Shown: positions 11,407 to 17,590 of the stretch, in pieces
Numbering within the stretch: the first letter of the stretch is position 1
Layout: every line of letters starts with the position of its first letter
DNA from: Candidatus Eremiobacterota bacterium
GTDB taxonomy: Bacteria > Vulcanimicrobiota > CADAWZ01 > Ess09-12
Direction: 5' to 3'
DNA: 64,000 bases
NCBI GenBank assembly: GCA_031082125.1
Contig: JAVHLM010000001.1
Location: 383,931 to 447,930 of the forward strand
The notes under the pieces: generated by a model
The model's input: the letters and a program-made list of their open reading frames with translations, nothing else
Databases searched by the model: none
Told to the model about the DNA's origin: nothing
Program-made: the position numbers and the translations under genes

Positions 11407-14052
11407 TCAGCAAATTCTGCCGGCCGGCCCCCGGGGGAGAATGAAGCAGAGGCCCCGCTTTTTTACTCCACTTTCATAAACCAGGAAGGGCTCGCAACCT
11501 GGCCGGGAGCCGAAGGTGAAAGTGAGGTTATGAGGCGCCTGCCCCTTGAGAACGAGGGCCCTCAGAGTGTGGAGGATATGAATGTGATGGGCTTTGCAGA
11601 GCGTGATGAGGTTCCTGGGATCATCGGTGCCGCCCTGGGAGCGCCTGATGATATGATGGACCTCAAGGTTGTGGCGGCAGTGGCAGCCGGGGACCTGGCA
11701 GCGGAACCGGTCACGCTTGAGAATGTCGTGGTGGCGGGCCGCCTTGTGGAAGACCTTTTCGGCGGTGAGATAGTCGGCGAGGAGGGAGGCAAGGAATCTT
11801 TCTTCCCAGGGAGGGGTGGCTAAGTCTATCGCGGCTGAGTCCAAGGCGGCAGATTCCGAAGCGCCAGATTCATTGGCGGCTGATTCTTCTGATTGTGCGG
11901 CAAGGCGCAAGAAGGCCGTAGCGGCGGTATTCCAGAGATTATAGAGGTCCTCAGGAAGGAAGAACCTGATGGCTATGGTGCACCCTCCTGTGGCAATACC
12001 GCCTGCTGCCGAGGCAGCGCTTCCCCTGATGAGATCCATGAGGAAGATCTCTTCGGGATTTTCTCCATGGGGGATGGTGCAGGCCACACGGGTCTGCCTG
12101 TGCACCTCTCCGTCGGCCTGGCAGGCTGCCCCTGCACATGAGCATGGTGATGATTTCAGGTCATCCTGAGGCGCACGCAAGGCAATTCCGCCCTTTTCCA
12201 TGGTGAATGCCTGACTCCCGTCAGCCGCACACAAGACGGTTTTACGACTCTCTTTCATAGCGGCTTCATAGGCCACCAACTCATCAACATCTTCAAAATA
12301 CTTCCAGGGCTCTTCAAGACGTTTGTCACGGCTTACTGCAGATTCCCCGTCATTTTCTGCGAGAGGCCACGAAGGCCGAAGTGACGGCCCCTCATACCAC
12401 GATCCCGTCCTGATGCACTCCCGCACCTCTTCAGGCAGCTCGGCAAACCGCTCGTCGGTGATATACCGGAAGCTTGGCAGGAGCCTGTATTTATGAAGCA
12501 CAAGGCAGTCATACTCCACAATCCTGGCGCAGCGCTGAGCCTCCTCCCGGAGCGTAATCACCGGCACAGAGGCGGCATAGGCAATCCACTCGTCCTCATT
12601 GTTCTCGTTCACTATGGGAAGAATGAGACGCGCCTGCTCCCTGGTGATGATACCCGACTTGAAGGCTTCTTCGGTGAGCGAATGACGGTGAAAGTCTTTC
12701 GCTAGCCTTATGAAGCGGTATATTTGCGCCTTGGAGAAGCCGCACTTATCTGCCCCATATTCCTCCACTGAGTCATAGCCGAACACACGGTAAAGCTGTC
12801 GCATGTCCATCGCCCGCAGGAGCATCCCTATTCCCACCTCGAGCCTCTGGCGCATCCAGGCGGCCTTAATGAGCCTCCTGGCCAGCACTCTCACCTCTCT
12901 CCCTGTCACCTCCGTCACTTCCTCAAGCCACGATGGAAAGAAGATGCTCCAGGGATACTTCCAGGGATCGTGTGATTCGAGGTCGGACGCGCTCTGCATG
13001 TAACCCCGGCGCCTCCGGAAAGAGCGCCTCTCACGGGAGGAATGCCTATCGCAGCAGGATTGCTCCTCACAAGAGTGCTGCTCCCCATCGGAAGGCATCG
13101 GCTCAACGTTTCTCCTCCACCTGGAAAGAGGAACGCGGTAAAATACAGGCAAGCTTCCCCGGTCATCAAGGGGGACAGGCACTGTGCCGACACCCCTCTC
13201 AGAGAGCTTTCCCGAGGCCATCCAATTGGAAAGGAGGGCCTCGACGAACCCCGCCTGGGGCCCGCTGTAATGCTCCTTATCCCTGAAGTAGGAAAGGGCG
13301 AAATCCCAGGTGAGGGCTAAAGCGGGCGACACCCTGAAGCGCATCATCATGCCATTTTTTTTATCGCTGTCTGGCACCAGGTCGGCTGAAGTTTCCTCCA
13401 CAGCCTGTGACGCAAGAGCCTCTTTCGCTTCCTTCTCAAGGGCCCTCACCGGGAGGCGCCCCGCCTTCTCGAGCCACTCCTCCTCGTTCTCAGGATTGAT
13501 TACTCTCGAGAGAGGGCGGAGTGCGCTCTTGGAAACTCTGCCTTGAAGATAAGCCTCGCATGTTCGGGGAAGCCGCGAGAGAAGCTCATAATTGTGTATC
13601 AGCTCCGATGCTGTGCGCCCCGAGAGGGAGAGGTGCTCGACGGCGAAGGTCTCGAGGGAGCGGTAGCCCAGGTGGTCCACCCCCTTCTGTTTCAGGATCT
13701 CGAGAAGCCTGCCCAGGACAAGGTCCAGGGCCATGCGGCTGCGCACTGCCCTGCAAAGATCGGAGTCTATCTGCGAGGCCTTCTCTTCCCTGTCGAATGA
13801 GCTGAAGGCAAGGCACTCCACTAACCTCTCCGCCTCGGTGAGGAACGCATCTATATCGACCTTCACCAGGTGATCATAGCGGTGAATACCATCTTCTTCA
13901 ACCTCATAGGGCTCAGGCAGGAGAAGAAAGTCTATGTCGCCCACAGGAAAAGATATCTCAGTGTCATGAGAGCGCGATTCATCTTCCTGGCGGGATCGCT
14001 CTTCTTCTGGATCAAAGCATGGCAAATCAGGGATAGTAATAGGGTGATTCAT
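11407..14052 (-). CDS. Large HNH endonuclease-domain protein with duplicated DUF222-like helical module
   Basis: 881 residues. Two related helical segments, about 100-210 and 395-515, both run from a MALDLVLGRLLE/RLEVGIGMLLRA helix through a tyrosine loop to a conserved INPENEEEWLEKA / VNENNEDEWIAYA motif. The HNH nuclease (about 780-825) has CQVPGC, LEVHHIIRRSQGG, NLITLC and KAHH, so the metal-binding His and Asn residues and zinc cysteines are intact. Linkers (310-360, 620-660, 720-745) are low-complexity. DUF222/13E12-type HNH proteins are common, often multicopy, and of uncertain role (mobile-element or defence nuclease). The promoter places the mRNA start on the ATG. No partner gene or inverted repeat suggests an intron or IS. 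Confidence 0.85.
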   Translation of the reverse strand: MNHPITIPDLPCFDPEEERSRQEDESRSHDTEISFPVGDIDFLLLPEPYEVEEDGIHRYDHLVKVDIDAFLTEAERLVECLAFSSFDREEKASQIDSDLCRAVRSRMALDLVLGRLLEILKQKGVDHLGYRSLETFAVEHLSLSGRTASELIHNYELLSRLPRTCEAYLQGRVSKSALRPLSRVINPENEEEWLEKAGRLPVRALEKEAKEALASQAVEETSADLVPDSDKKNGMMMRFRVSPALALTWDFALSYFRDKEHYSGPQAGFVEALLSNWMASGKLSERGVGTVPVPLDDRGSLPVFYRVPLSRWRRNVEPMPSDGEQHSCEEQSCCDRHSSRERRSFRRRRGYMQSASDLESHDPWKYPWSIFFPSWLEEVTEVTGREVRVLARRLIKAAWMRQRLEVGIGMLLRAMDMRQLYRVFGYDSVEEYGADKCGFSKAQIYRFIRLAKDFHRHSLTEEAFKSGIITREQARLILPIVNENNEDEWIAYAASVPVITLREEAQRCARIVEYDCLVLHKYRLLPSFRYITDERFAELPEEVRECIRTGSWYEGPSLRPSWPLAENDGESAVSRDKRLEEPWKYFEDVDELVAYEAAMKESRKTVLCAADGSQAFTMEKGGIALRAPQDDLKSSPCSCAGAACQADGEVHRQTRVACTIPHGENPEEIFLMDLIRGSAASAAGGIATGGCTIAIRFFLPEDLYNLWNTAATAFLRLAAQSEESAANESGASESAALDSAAIDLATPPWEERFLASLLADYLTAEKVFHKAARHHDILKRDRFRCQVPGCHCRHNLEVHHIIRRSQGGTDDPRNLITLCKAHHIHILHTLRALVLKGQAPHNLTFTFGSRPGCEPFLVYESGVKKRGLCFILPRGPAGRIC

Positions 14053-15564: not shown

Positions 15565-15610
15565 GGTTATCTCCTTTTGGTAAATAGAGAGCATATGAGA
15601 TTGGTGCTTT

Positions 15611-15657
15611 GTAGGAGTCATCAGCGTGAAAAGCAGTTAAAGGCGAACTCCATCGCC
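15611..15657 (-). ncRNA. Fluoride riboswitch (crcB motif) upstream of the antiporter, translational type
   Basis: Minus-strand RNA reads GGCGAUGGAGUUCGCC, then UUUAAC, a short weak P3, then GCUGAUGACUCCUAC. P2 (GGCG/CGCC), the long-range GGAGU/ACUCC pairing and the invariant CUGAUGA match the crcB aptamer. It starts 10 nt after the dynamin stop codon. No terminator follows; instead the aptamer's CUCCU could pair with AGGAG of the antiporter ribosome site 40 nt downstream, so fluoride binding would free the site. Aptamer call is strong; mechanism is inferred. Confidence 0.9.
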
Positions 15658-15666
15658 TTTTTTCAA

Positions 15667-17457
15667 TCAGGCACTCACCTCCCCGGCAAGGAGGCTCTCC
15701 AGGTACGCCTTCTTCTCCCTGAGGGTGCCGATGAGAGGCTCCTGGGAGCCCGAAGTCTCTCCCTGGAGGGTGCGGGCCTGCTGGACAGCCTCCCTGATGT
15801 CGCGGAATCCCTGCTCCAGCTCGCTCGCCAGGGCAAAATTCAGGTTCCTTATCACGCGCTCGAGGCCGTCAAGGAGGGCGTAACGGAGCTTGCCCGCGTT
15901 TTTCAGGACAAGGCTTTCGGCCTCCTCCATCGCCTCCCTCCTCAGGACTTTTTTCAGCGTCGAGACAGGGACGGCATGGTAGAGCAGCTTTTTTGCCACC
16001 TCGAAAAGGCCGCATGAATAGACGATGTGCTCCCAGATGAAGCGGGGCCACTTCAGGGAAAAAGGCTCAAATACAAGCGGTGACGTGCGCACTTCAAAGA
16101 TCGCAAGGGCATCACGCCTTACCGTCGCGATGAGATTCTCCGCCTTCGCAAGAACGGGGGAGAGCTTCTCTTCCGAGAGCCTGCAGGCATCGGCAATAAA
16201 GGAGTCCTTCCTTGCGATGAAAAAATCGGGGACCGCGCTGTCAAGAAACGTGCGGAGTCTTGAGGAGATCGTTCTGAAGCTCTCCTTTTTGTCATTGGTG
16301 CCTGTGATATCCCTGATTCCCTGGAAGATGGCCTCCATGGCTTCCTGTTCGAGACGCTCGGTCTTTCTCCTGATTTCCAGGGCGATTCTCTTCTCCTCGG
16401 CCTCAAGCGCGTCCCTGATCCAGAGCCTCTCTTCCTTCACATGGGCCTCCAGGGCCGAGAGCCTCAGAATTTTTTCATCAAGCTCCCTGAGGGGGGTCGC
16501 CAGAAGGTTGATTCTCAGGTCAATTGCCGCAAGGGATCCTTCGATGATCGCCCTGGTCTTCATCGCAAGGGCCCTGCAGAGGATCTGCTTCTTTTCATGC
16601 TCAAAGAATGCCGCCAGATGGCTCTCAAGCCTCTCCATGCCGCTCTGCTCCCAGGCATCCTCATTTCCTGCAAGCCGCCCTTCAAGACCTCTCAGGGCGG
16701 AGACAGGAAAGATTTCCAGGGGAGCCCTGAAGCCGGCTTTTTCCCTGAGATTTTTCTCCAGAAAGCTCAGCAGCTTCCTGAGTTCCTCTTCGCTCAGAAT
16801 GTCCCTTTTGTTGAGCACAAAGAAGAGGTGCGCCGCATGCTTTGATATGAGAGAGAGAAATTCAAGCTCGGCCTGGGTGAGAGGCGGATCGGGCGAGGTG
16901 AGAAAGAGGGCCAGATCGCACTGGGGCAGGAACTCCACCGTCACCGCAGTATTATGGGTGAGTGTCGAGCCTATGCCGGGCGTGTCGATAATGACCACTC
17001 CTTGCCTCAGAAGCGGGGCATCGCAGAATATTTCCGCCCTTTCGACATTTTTCTCATTGCCCGGGTTCCCTTCCTCTGTCACAAAGAGCGGAAGATCTTC
17101 CATGGCAGCATTCCGGGACGACCCATCCCGGAAAAGAATTGTCACGATCCTCTCCTCTCCATACTTCAGGAGCGTCGGCACCGACGTGAGGGGGAGCATG
17201 GCCCGCGGAAGGATATCATGCCCCAGGAGTGAGTTGATGAGGGTGCTTTTTCCCCTCTTAAACTGTCCAAGGACTGCAATATGGAGCACGGAGTTATCGA
17301 GACGCCCGGCAAGTTTTTCAATATCATCGATGCACTGTTTCCAGGGACCTTCGATGGATGCAAGGGAAAGCATTGTTTCCCGCACTTTCTCCATCTGGGA
17401 CCTGAGGTCCGGGATAGAGGTCCCGGCCTGCCTTTCCGCTTTCTTCGGCTCTTTCAT
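15667..17457 (-). CDS. Dynamin-like GTPase under fluoride riboswitch control
   Basis: 596 residues from the ATG at 17457 (GGAGAG about 10 nt upstream); a GTG 15 codons earlier falls inside the riboswitch terminator. The GTPase has GQFKRGKST (P-loop, Lys70), the switch-I Thr in PLTSVPT, DTPGIGST (G3) and NKRD (G4). The rest is long helices typical of the bacterial dynamin stalk, plus a hydrophobic stretch near 480-510 (HIVYSCGLFEVAKKLLYH) that may be the membrane paddle. Such proteins bind, tubulate or repair the inner membrane; usually two paralogues are adjacent, but here there is one. Directly followed by a second fluoride switch and the antiporter. A fluoride-induced dynamin is not something I know from the literature. 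Confidence 0.9.
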   Translation of the reverse strand: MKEPKKAERQAGTSIPDLRSQMEKVRETMLSLASIEGPWKQCIDDIEKLAGRLDNSVLHIAVLGQFKRGKSTLINSLLGHDILPRAMLPLTSVPTLLKYGEERIVTILFRDGSSRNAAMEDLPLFVTEEGNPGNEKNVERAEIFCDAPLLRQGVVIIDTPGIGSTLTHNTAVTVEFLPQCDLALFLTSPDPPLTQAELEFLSLISKHAAHLFFVLNKRDILSEEELRKLLSFLEKNLREKAGFRAPLEIFPVSALRGLEGRLAGNEDAWEQSGMERLESHLAAFFEHEKKQILCRALAMKTRAIIEGSLAAIDLRINLLATPLRELDEKILRLSALEAHVKEERLWIRDALEAEEKRIALEIRRKTERLEQEAMEAIFQGIRDITGTNDKKESFRTISSRLRTFLDSAVPDFFIARKDSFIADACRLSEEKLSPVLAKAENLIATVRRDALAIFEVRTSPLVFEPFSLKWPRFIWEHIVYSCGLFEVAKKLLYHAVPVSTLKKVLRREAMEEAESLVLKNAGKLRYALLDGLERVIRNLNFALASELEQGFRDIREAVQQARTLQGETSGSQEPLIGTLREKKAYLESLLAGEVSA

Positions 17458-17484
17458 GGGATGCTCTCCAAGCTCTCCTGGCGT

Positions 17485-17515
17485 AAAAATAAAAACTCCC
17501 ACTCTCTGCAGGAGT
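17485..17515 (-). terminator. Riboswitch-controlled intrinsic terminator
   Basis: ACUCCU pairs with GGGAGU around a 9-nt loop, followed by UUUUUAUUUUU. The 5' arm is also the 3' strand of the aptamer's long-range helix, so ligand-bound aptamer and terminator are mutually exclusive: fluoride should switch transcription on. Confidence 0.85.
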
Positions 17516-17550
17516 CATCAGCCTTTCGGCACCGGGCGAACTCCATCGCC
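17508..17550 (-). ncRNA. Fluoride riboswitch (crcB motif) upstream of the dynamin-like gene, transcriptional type
   Basis: The RNA reads GGCGAUGGAGUUCGCC, a GCC-GAAA-GGC hairpin (P3), then UGAUGACUCCUGCAG. All core crcB elements are present: the GGCG/CGCC helix, GGAGU/ACUCC pairing, and CUGAUGA. It lies just downstream of a promoter and overlaps a terminator, so both sensor and expression platform are visible. Confidence 0.93.
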
Positions 17551-17560
17551 ATCACCACAT

Positions 17561-17590
17561 AGTATAGCAGATTCAGCCGGCTCCTGTAAA
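17561..17590 (-). promoter_or_regulatory. Promoter of the fluoride-responsive dynamin transcript
   Basis: TTTACA (17585-17590), 18 bp, TATACT (17561-17566) on the minus strand. The predicted +1 (about 17554) is a few nucleotides before the aptamer. Confidence 0.75.

Follow-up and report, generated by a model that had tools for sequence, protein, structure and literature searches.

On the minus strand of the window, the whole 64,000-nucleotide stretch of DNA analyzed here, a promoter-like site, a fluoride riboswitch aptamer (RS1) with an overlapping terminator, a dynamin-like GTPase gene (P0002), a second fluoride aptamer (RS2), and a Na+/H+ antiporter gene (P0001) follow one another in that order (Table 1). 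The first base of RS2 is the base directly after the dynamin stop codon. An earlier note on this DNA had delimited positions 15667 to 17590 as a dynamin-like gene under riboswitch control. That unit stands, but the interval stops one base short of RS2, the stronger of the two aptamers, which the note missed. The gene likely starts at the ATG at 17457 rather than at the GTG at 17502. Past the antiporter gene lies an 881-aa open reading frame (window positions 11407 to 14052, minus strand) whose C terminus, read by eye, is HNH-nuclease-like.

Table 1. Features of the dynamin-antiporter locus, in window coordinates
Feature	Position	Strand	Description
Sigma-70-like promoter	17561..17590	-	TTTACA, 18 nt, TATACT, extended TG; 10/12 consensus positions
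Fluoride riboswitch aptamer 1 (RS1), leader of the dynamin-like gene	17502..17559	-	Rfam RF01734
Intrinsic terminator	17484..17516	-	Stem 17516-17494 and U-rich tail; overlaps RS1 3' strand
Dynamin-like GTPase gene P0002, 596 aa	15667..17457	-	ATG 17457, stop 15669-15667; 597 codons including stop
Fluoride riboswitch aptamer 2 (RS2), leader of the antiporter gene	15605..15666	-	Rfam RF01734
RS2 expression platform (predicted)	15565..15604	-	Shine-Dalgarno AGGAG 15575-15571, complementary to upstream UCUC/CUCCU segments
CPA-type cation/proton antiporter gene P0001, 392 aa	14386..15564	-	ATG 15564; PF00999

Both aptamers exceed the gathering score of 34 for the fluoride riboswitch covariance model (crcB RNA motif, RF01734). 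RS1, the weaker one, matches the model over its full length (1-64) with 38.7 bits (E = 3.6e-7), and RS2 scores 57.6 bits (E = 2.3e-13). The crcB aptamer that the earlier note had placed at 17508 to 17550, with a covariance-model search proposed as its check, is thus confirmed. A search of the whole 7.43-Mb genome found no fluoride aptamer besides RS1 and RS2. In an alignment of 39 aptamers of the family, 95% of cells are paired, the pseudoknot is kept in 100%, and eight pairs have changed on both sides. The consensus-like promoter that had been reported ahead of RS1 is also present; its -10 box ends (17561) two bases ahead of the start of the RS1 match. Since three sites of the TTTACA/TATACT type were seen in the 3.8 kb scanned versus 1.8 expected, the promoter is suggestive by its position only.

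The overlapping intrinsic terminator, previously put at 17485 to 17515, was recovered as a stem followed by TTTATTTTTA, with a folding energy of -12.2 kcal/mol (z = -3.61). The stem has the 3' pseudoknot strand of the aptamer, GACTCC, in common with RS1, which gives the layout of a transcriptional ON switch. Without fluoride, this strand (GACUCC in the RNA) would pair into the terminator and transcription would stop; fluoride would stabilize the pseudoknot, block the terminator, and allow the dynamin gene to be transcribed by antitermination. No terminator with a T run was found downstream of RS2, from which we infer that this second gate, for the antiporter, probably acts at translation. The RS2 Shine-Dalgarno sequence is paired in the minimum free energy structure of the full 112-nt leader, but folding of the short segment gave no significant structure (z = 0.26), and Shine-Dalgarno sequestration is a weakly supported candidate for the expression platform. 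The RS1 leader resembles the known riboswitch class in sequence, in its two stems and pseudoknot, in the overlapping terminator, in the promoter just upstream, and in having fluoride-response neighbors. The difference here is that the regulated gene encodes a dynamin-like GTPase.

The identification of P0002 as dynamin-like, also made earlier, is borne out by its match to the Pfam family Dynamin_N (PF00350, E = 7.9e-28) and by sequence matches to the solved bacterial dynamins 5owv (7e-22), 2j68 (1e-21), and 6j72 (6e-16); no NCBIfam model reaches its cutoff for this protein. The P-loop (GQFKRGKS), DTPG, and NKxD motifs are invariant or nearly so across 76 homologues, so the GTPase is probably active. 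An AlphaFold model built with these 76 sequences (mean pLDDT of 88.6) has a G domain and long helices whose far ends are joined by a low-confidence loop, and it contains the helical neck and trunk fold of the dynamin superfamily. In a Foldseek comparison with solved folds, IniA came first (1.6e-19) and BDLP next (4e-19). The whole-chain TM score is about 0.4, probably because the domain orientations differ.

Like P0002, IniA of Mycobacterium (6j72) is a single dynamin-like protein of similar length, but the two are only about 16% identical, and IniA is known from its induction by the drug isoniazid, not by fluoride. BDLP of Nostoc (2j68/2j69) and the Cj-DLP pair (5owv) share the G domain and the long helical stalk with P0002, with comparison of the paddle limited by the confidence of the model at the tip. 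We know of no link of BDLP or the Cj-DLP pair to fluoride. Across the family, the tip loop (residues 453 to 497) is 15.7% aromatic versus 4.6% in the stalk. The N terminus aside, model confidence is lowest at this tip (pLDDT block means of 54 to 68 over residues 461 to 490). Its composition is what a tip that touches the membrane should have, but this is no more than suggestive.

P0001 has a whole-protein Na_H_Exchanger domain (PF00999, E = 1.2e-36, residues 13 to 363), and its nearest solved relatives are the Na+/H+ antiporters 4bwz and 5bz3. With its place behind RS2, it is a candidate for pH repair rather than for fluoride export. The genome encodes one CLC protein, which was considered as a CLC-F exporter and set aside, as the letters of its filter region (GSGGS and GREGP, judged by eye only) look like those of an ordinary CLC. 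No CrcB was found in the window genome, a departure from the known fluoride regulon that is shared by 18 of the 30 dynamin genomes tested. The dynamin is therefore not simply a CrcB adjunct. It is not a general CrcB replacement either, since the other 12 of the 30 have CrcB.

The earlier note had also proposed that other genomes be searched for the pairing of aptamer and dynamin gene, and it recurs widely. GTDB genomes were scanned by protein alignment, the 80 best relatives of P0002 were kept on protein similarity alone, and their loci were searched with a covariance model trained on 39 fluoride aptamers from the window's phylum. Of the 80 loci, 61 contain an aptamer. In 55 of these, the aptamer and the dynamin match share a strand, with the aptamer no more than 1 kb upstream and mostly 12 to 150 nt ahead of the likely start codon, and three further loci (L082, L095, and L111) have the order aptamer, MutS-like gene, MutS-like gene, dynamin gene in one direction. 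When the dynamin-proximal aptamer was retested with the Rfam model, 27 of 28 loci were confirmed (17/17 and 10/11). The hosts belong to about 14 named phyla of Bacteria and Archaea, among them methanogenic archaea, Moorella, Atribacterota, Latescibacterota, Acidobacteriota, Planctomycetota, and Desulfobacterota-type bacteria. This recurrence rules out a one-off chance pairing. A viral origin was also rejected, the single relative on a viral contig being without an aptamer. Lichenicola cladoniae, a cultured lichen bacterium, has a plasmid on which a fluoride aptamer (L164:4813-4877) leads a crcB gene and a universal stress protein (UspA) gene, and a more distantly related dynamin gene lies divergent from this pair.

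Choosing homologues by best match could bias the aptamer count, and we set against this an even sample of 118 genomes from the phylum to which a Desulfomonile genome belongs. Twenty of these genomes encode the dynamin, with 21 homologues, and 16 of the 21 have a same-strand aptamer no more than 400 nt upstream. A fluoride riboswitch is present in all 20 dynamin genomes versus 32 of the 98 others (Fisher P = 6e-9, a guide rather than an exact probability because genomes share ancestry). Viewed from the riboswitch side, a dynamin gene stands directly behind 16 of the 72 fluoride aptamers in this sample (22%).

The pairing also recurs in the window's own phylum, where 98 genomes were examined and homologues scoring over 130 bits were counted as close relatives of P0002. 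All 12 close relatives fall inside gene clusters with fluoride aptamers. Five are directly behind an aptamer, six are behind an aptamer and one to four genes of the same direction, and one (L063) is beside a divergent aptamer. Also in these clusters are CrcB, DUF190, tandem MutS-like genes, and membrane genes resembling complex I or formate hydrogen lyase. As a negative control, 19 more distant dynamins from this phylum were examined, and none had a significant aptamer in the surrounding 1.5 kb or so; two dynamins encoded on plasmids (L165 and L166) also lack one. It was therefore rejected that any dynamin simply happens to sit near fluoride switches. Several clusters of this phylum in the family coded f9 (L062, L063, L064-L066, L067-L068, and L071) have multiple fluoride aptamers on both strands and look like fluoride-response islands, containing CrcB, DUF190, MutS-like pairs, dynamins, and complex I- or hydrogenase-like genes.

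P0002 thus represents a distinct, widespread dynamin subfamily that is usually under fluoride riboswitch control, and the regulatory link of this family to fluoride is strong. Nearly all parts of a tree of 88 proteins carry the aptamer, from archaea to Acidobacteriota; the tree came from a quick search, and the placement of P0002 beside a long branch in it is unsure. One clade of 11 members, mostly Desulfuromonadales, has kept the gene with no fluoride aptamer nearby (L119, L120, L134, L138, L139, L145, L148, L150, L152, L156, and L159), and the protein is therefore not always fluoride-controlled. Such a clade would be expected if the protein were a general envelope-stress dynamin, placed under fluoride control in some lineages with no fluoride-specific chemistry and with fluoride as one trigger only, and the drug induction of IniA, its nearest solved relative by fold, points the same way. 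However, the breadth of the aptamer across the tree and the riboswitch in every dynamin genome of the even sample make this explanation unlikely.

In other phyla, the dynamin gene has neighbors that encode enolase (18 loci), MutS-like pairs (12 loci), antiporters, MFS transporters, UspA, DUF190, CrcB, and HEAT-repeat proteins, and no partner is constant across the dynamin operons. At L082, L084, L111, L127, L130, and other loci, tandem short MutS-like ATPases (MutS domain V, about 510 and 570 aa) stand beside the dynamin under fluoride switches. Enolase, antiporter, mutS, and formate hydrogen lyase genes are documented fluoride riboswitch targets; two published gene lists also name exporters, pyrophosphatase, HAD, and chorismate mutase and hold no dynamins (PMC2864571, PMC11139923). 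The dynamin gene is found in the same operons and under the same switch as the known fluoride regulon of CrcB/Fluc, CLC-F, NhaA-type antiporters, enolase, formate hydrogen lyase, and MutS.

Such company could mean that the dynamin-like protein, though a member of the fluoride regulon, has a task other than treating the membrane: it may scaffold or cluster transporters (antiporter, CrcB, or MFS) or take part in some other repair with the MutS-like pair and HEAT-repeat proteins. The repeated joining of the dynamin to the antiporter, MFS, enolase, UspA, CrcB, DUF190, MutS-like, and HEAT-repeat genes is what such a role would predict. Yet in several loci (e.g., L108 and L137), the switch precedes the dynamin gene and no recognized partner is directly behind it, and the fold of P0002 is that of membrane-remodeling dynamins; we regard a role of this kind as quite improbable. 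An antiphage dynamin of the LeoA/LeoBC type, beside fluoride genes by chance, is very improbable indeed: the PADLOC LeoA and LeoBC profiles do match P0002 (E = 1.5e-20 and 2.9e-14), but for a protein of 596 aa such values are weak and at the level expected within one superfamily, the NCBIfam LeoA model falls far below its cutoff (E = 0.0014), the neighbors are fluoride genes rather than defense genes and are unlike a leoABC operon, and many phyla share the pairing with the aptamer.

We consider it likely that the locus is a two-gene, two-switch fluoride-response operon in which a dynamin-like GTPase of a widespread subfamily protects or reshapes the membrane while the antiporter restores pH. 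The dynamin-like protein would most likely assemble on the cytoplasmic membrane via its aromatic-rich tip and use GTP to protect or reshape the bilayer, with the antiporter correcting pH after HF entry. HF crosses the membrane and acidifies the cytoplasm (PMC11139923), which makes the pairing of a membrane-acting GTPase with an antiporter reasonable. The recurrence supports the proposal in the earlier note of an undescribed arm of fluoride resistance, with membrane repair against HF as its putative mechanism and with RS1 and RS2 presumed to bind fluoride. A more far-reaching version, to which we give somewhat less than even credence, is that a dedicated bacterial and archaeal dynamin subfamily forms a core, unrecognized arm of fluoride resistance, often in the absence of CrcB, in which fluoride induces a GTPase that seals the inner membrane, or reshapes it, to keep HF from entering.

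A literature search for dynamins with a fluoride riboswitch or crcB found nothing relevant, with an earlier mention in the gene tables of the defining 2012 Science paper being possible. Neither the riboswitch class nor the dynamin superfamily is new; what appears to be new is that the fluoride riboswitch recurrently targets a widespread subfamily of dynamins. Fluoride resistance has so far been ascribed mainly to export, pH repair, and overproduction of inhibited enzymes, and to our knowledge the physiological triggers of bacterial dynamins are mostly unknown. These results suggest that a dynamin-like protein is part of the fluoride defense of many microbes. If this is true, membrane remodeling would join the list of fluoride resistance mechanisms, with a fluoride-controlled dynamin-like GTPase in about 14 named phyla of two domains, and bacterial dynamins would gain a defined inducer open to experimental testing.
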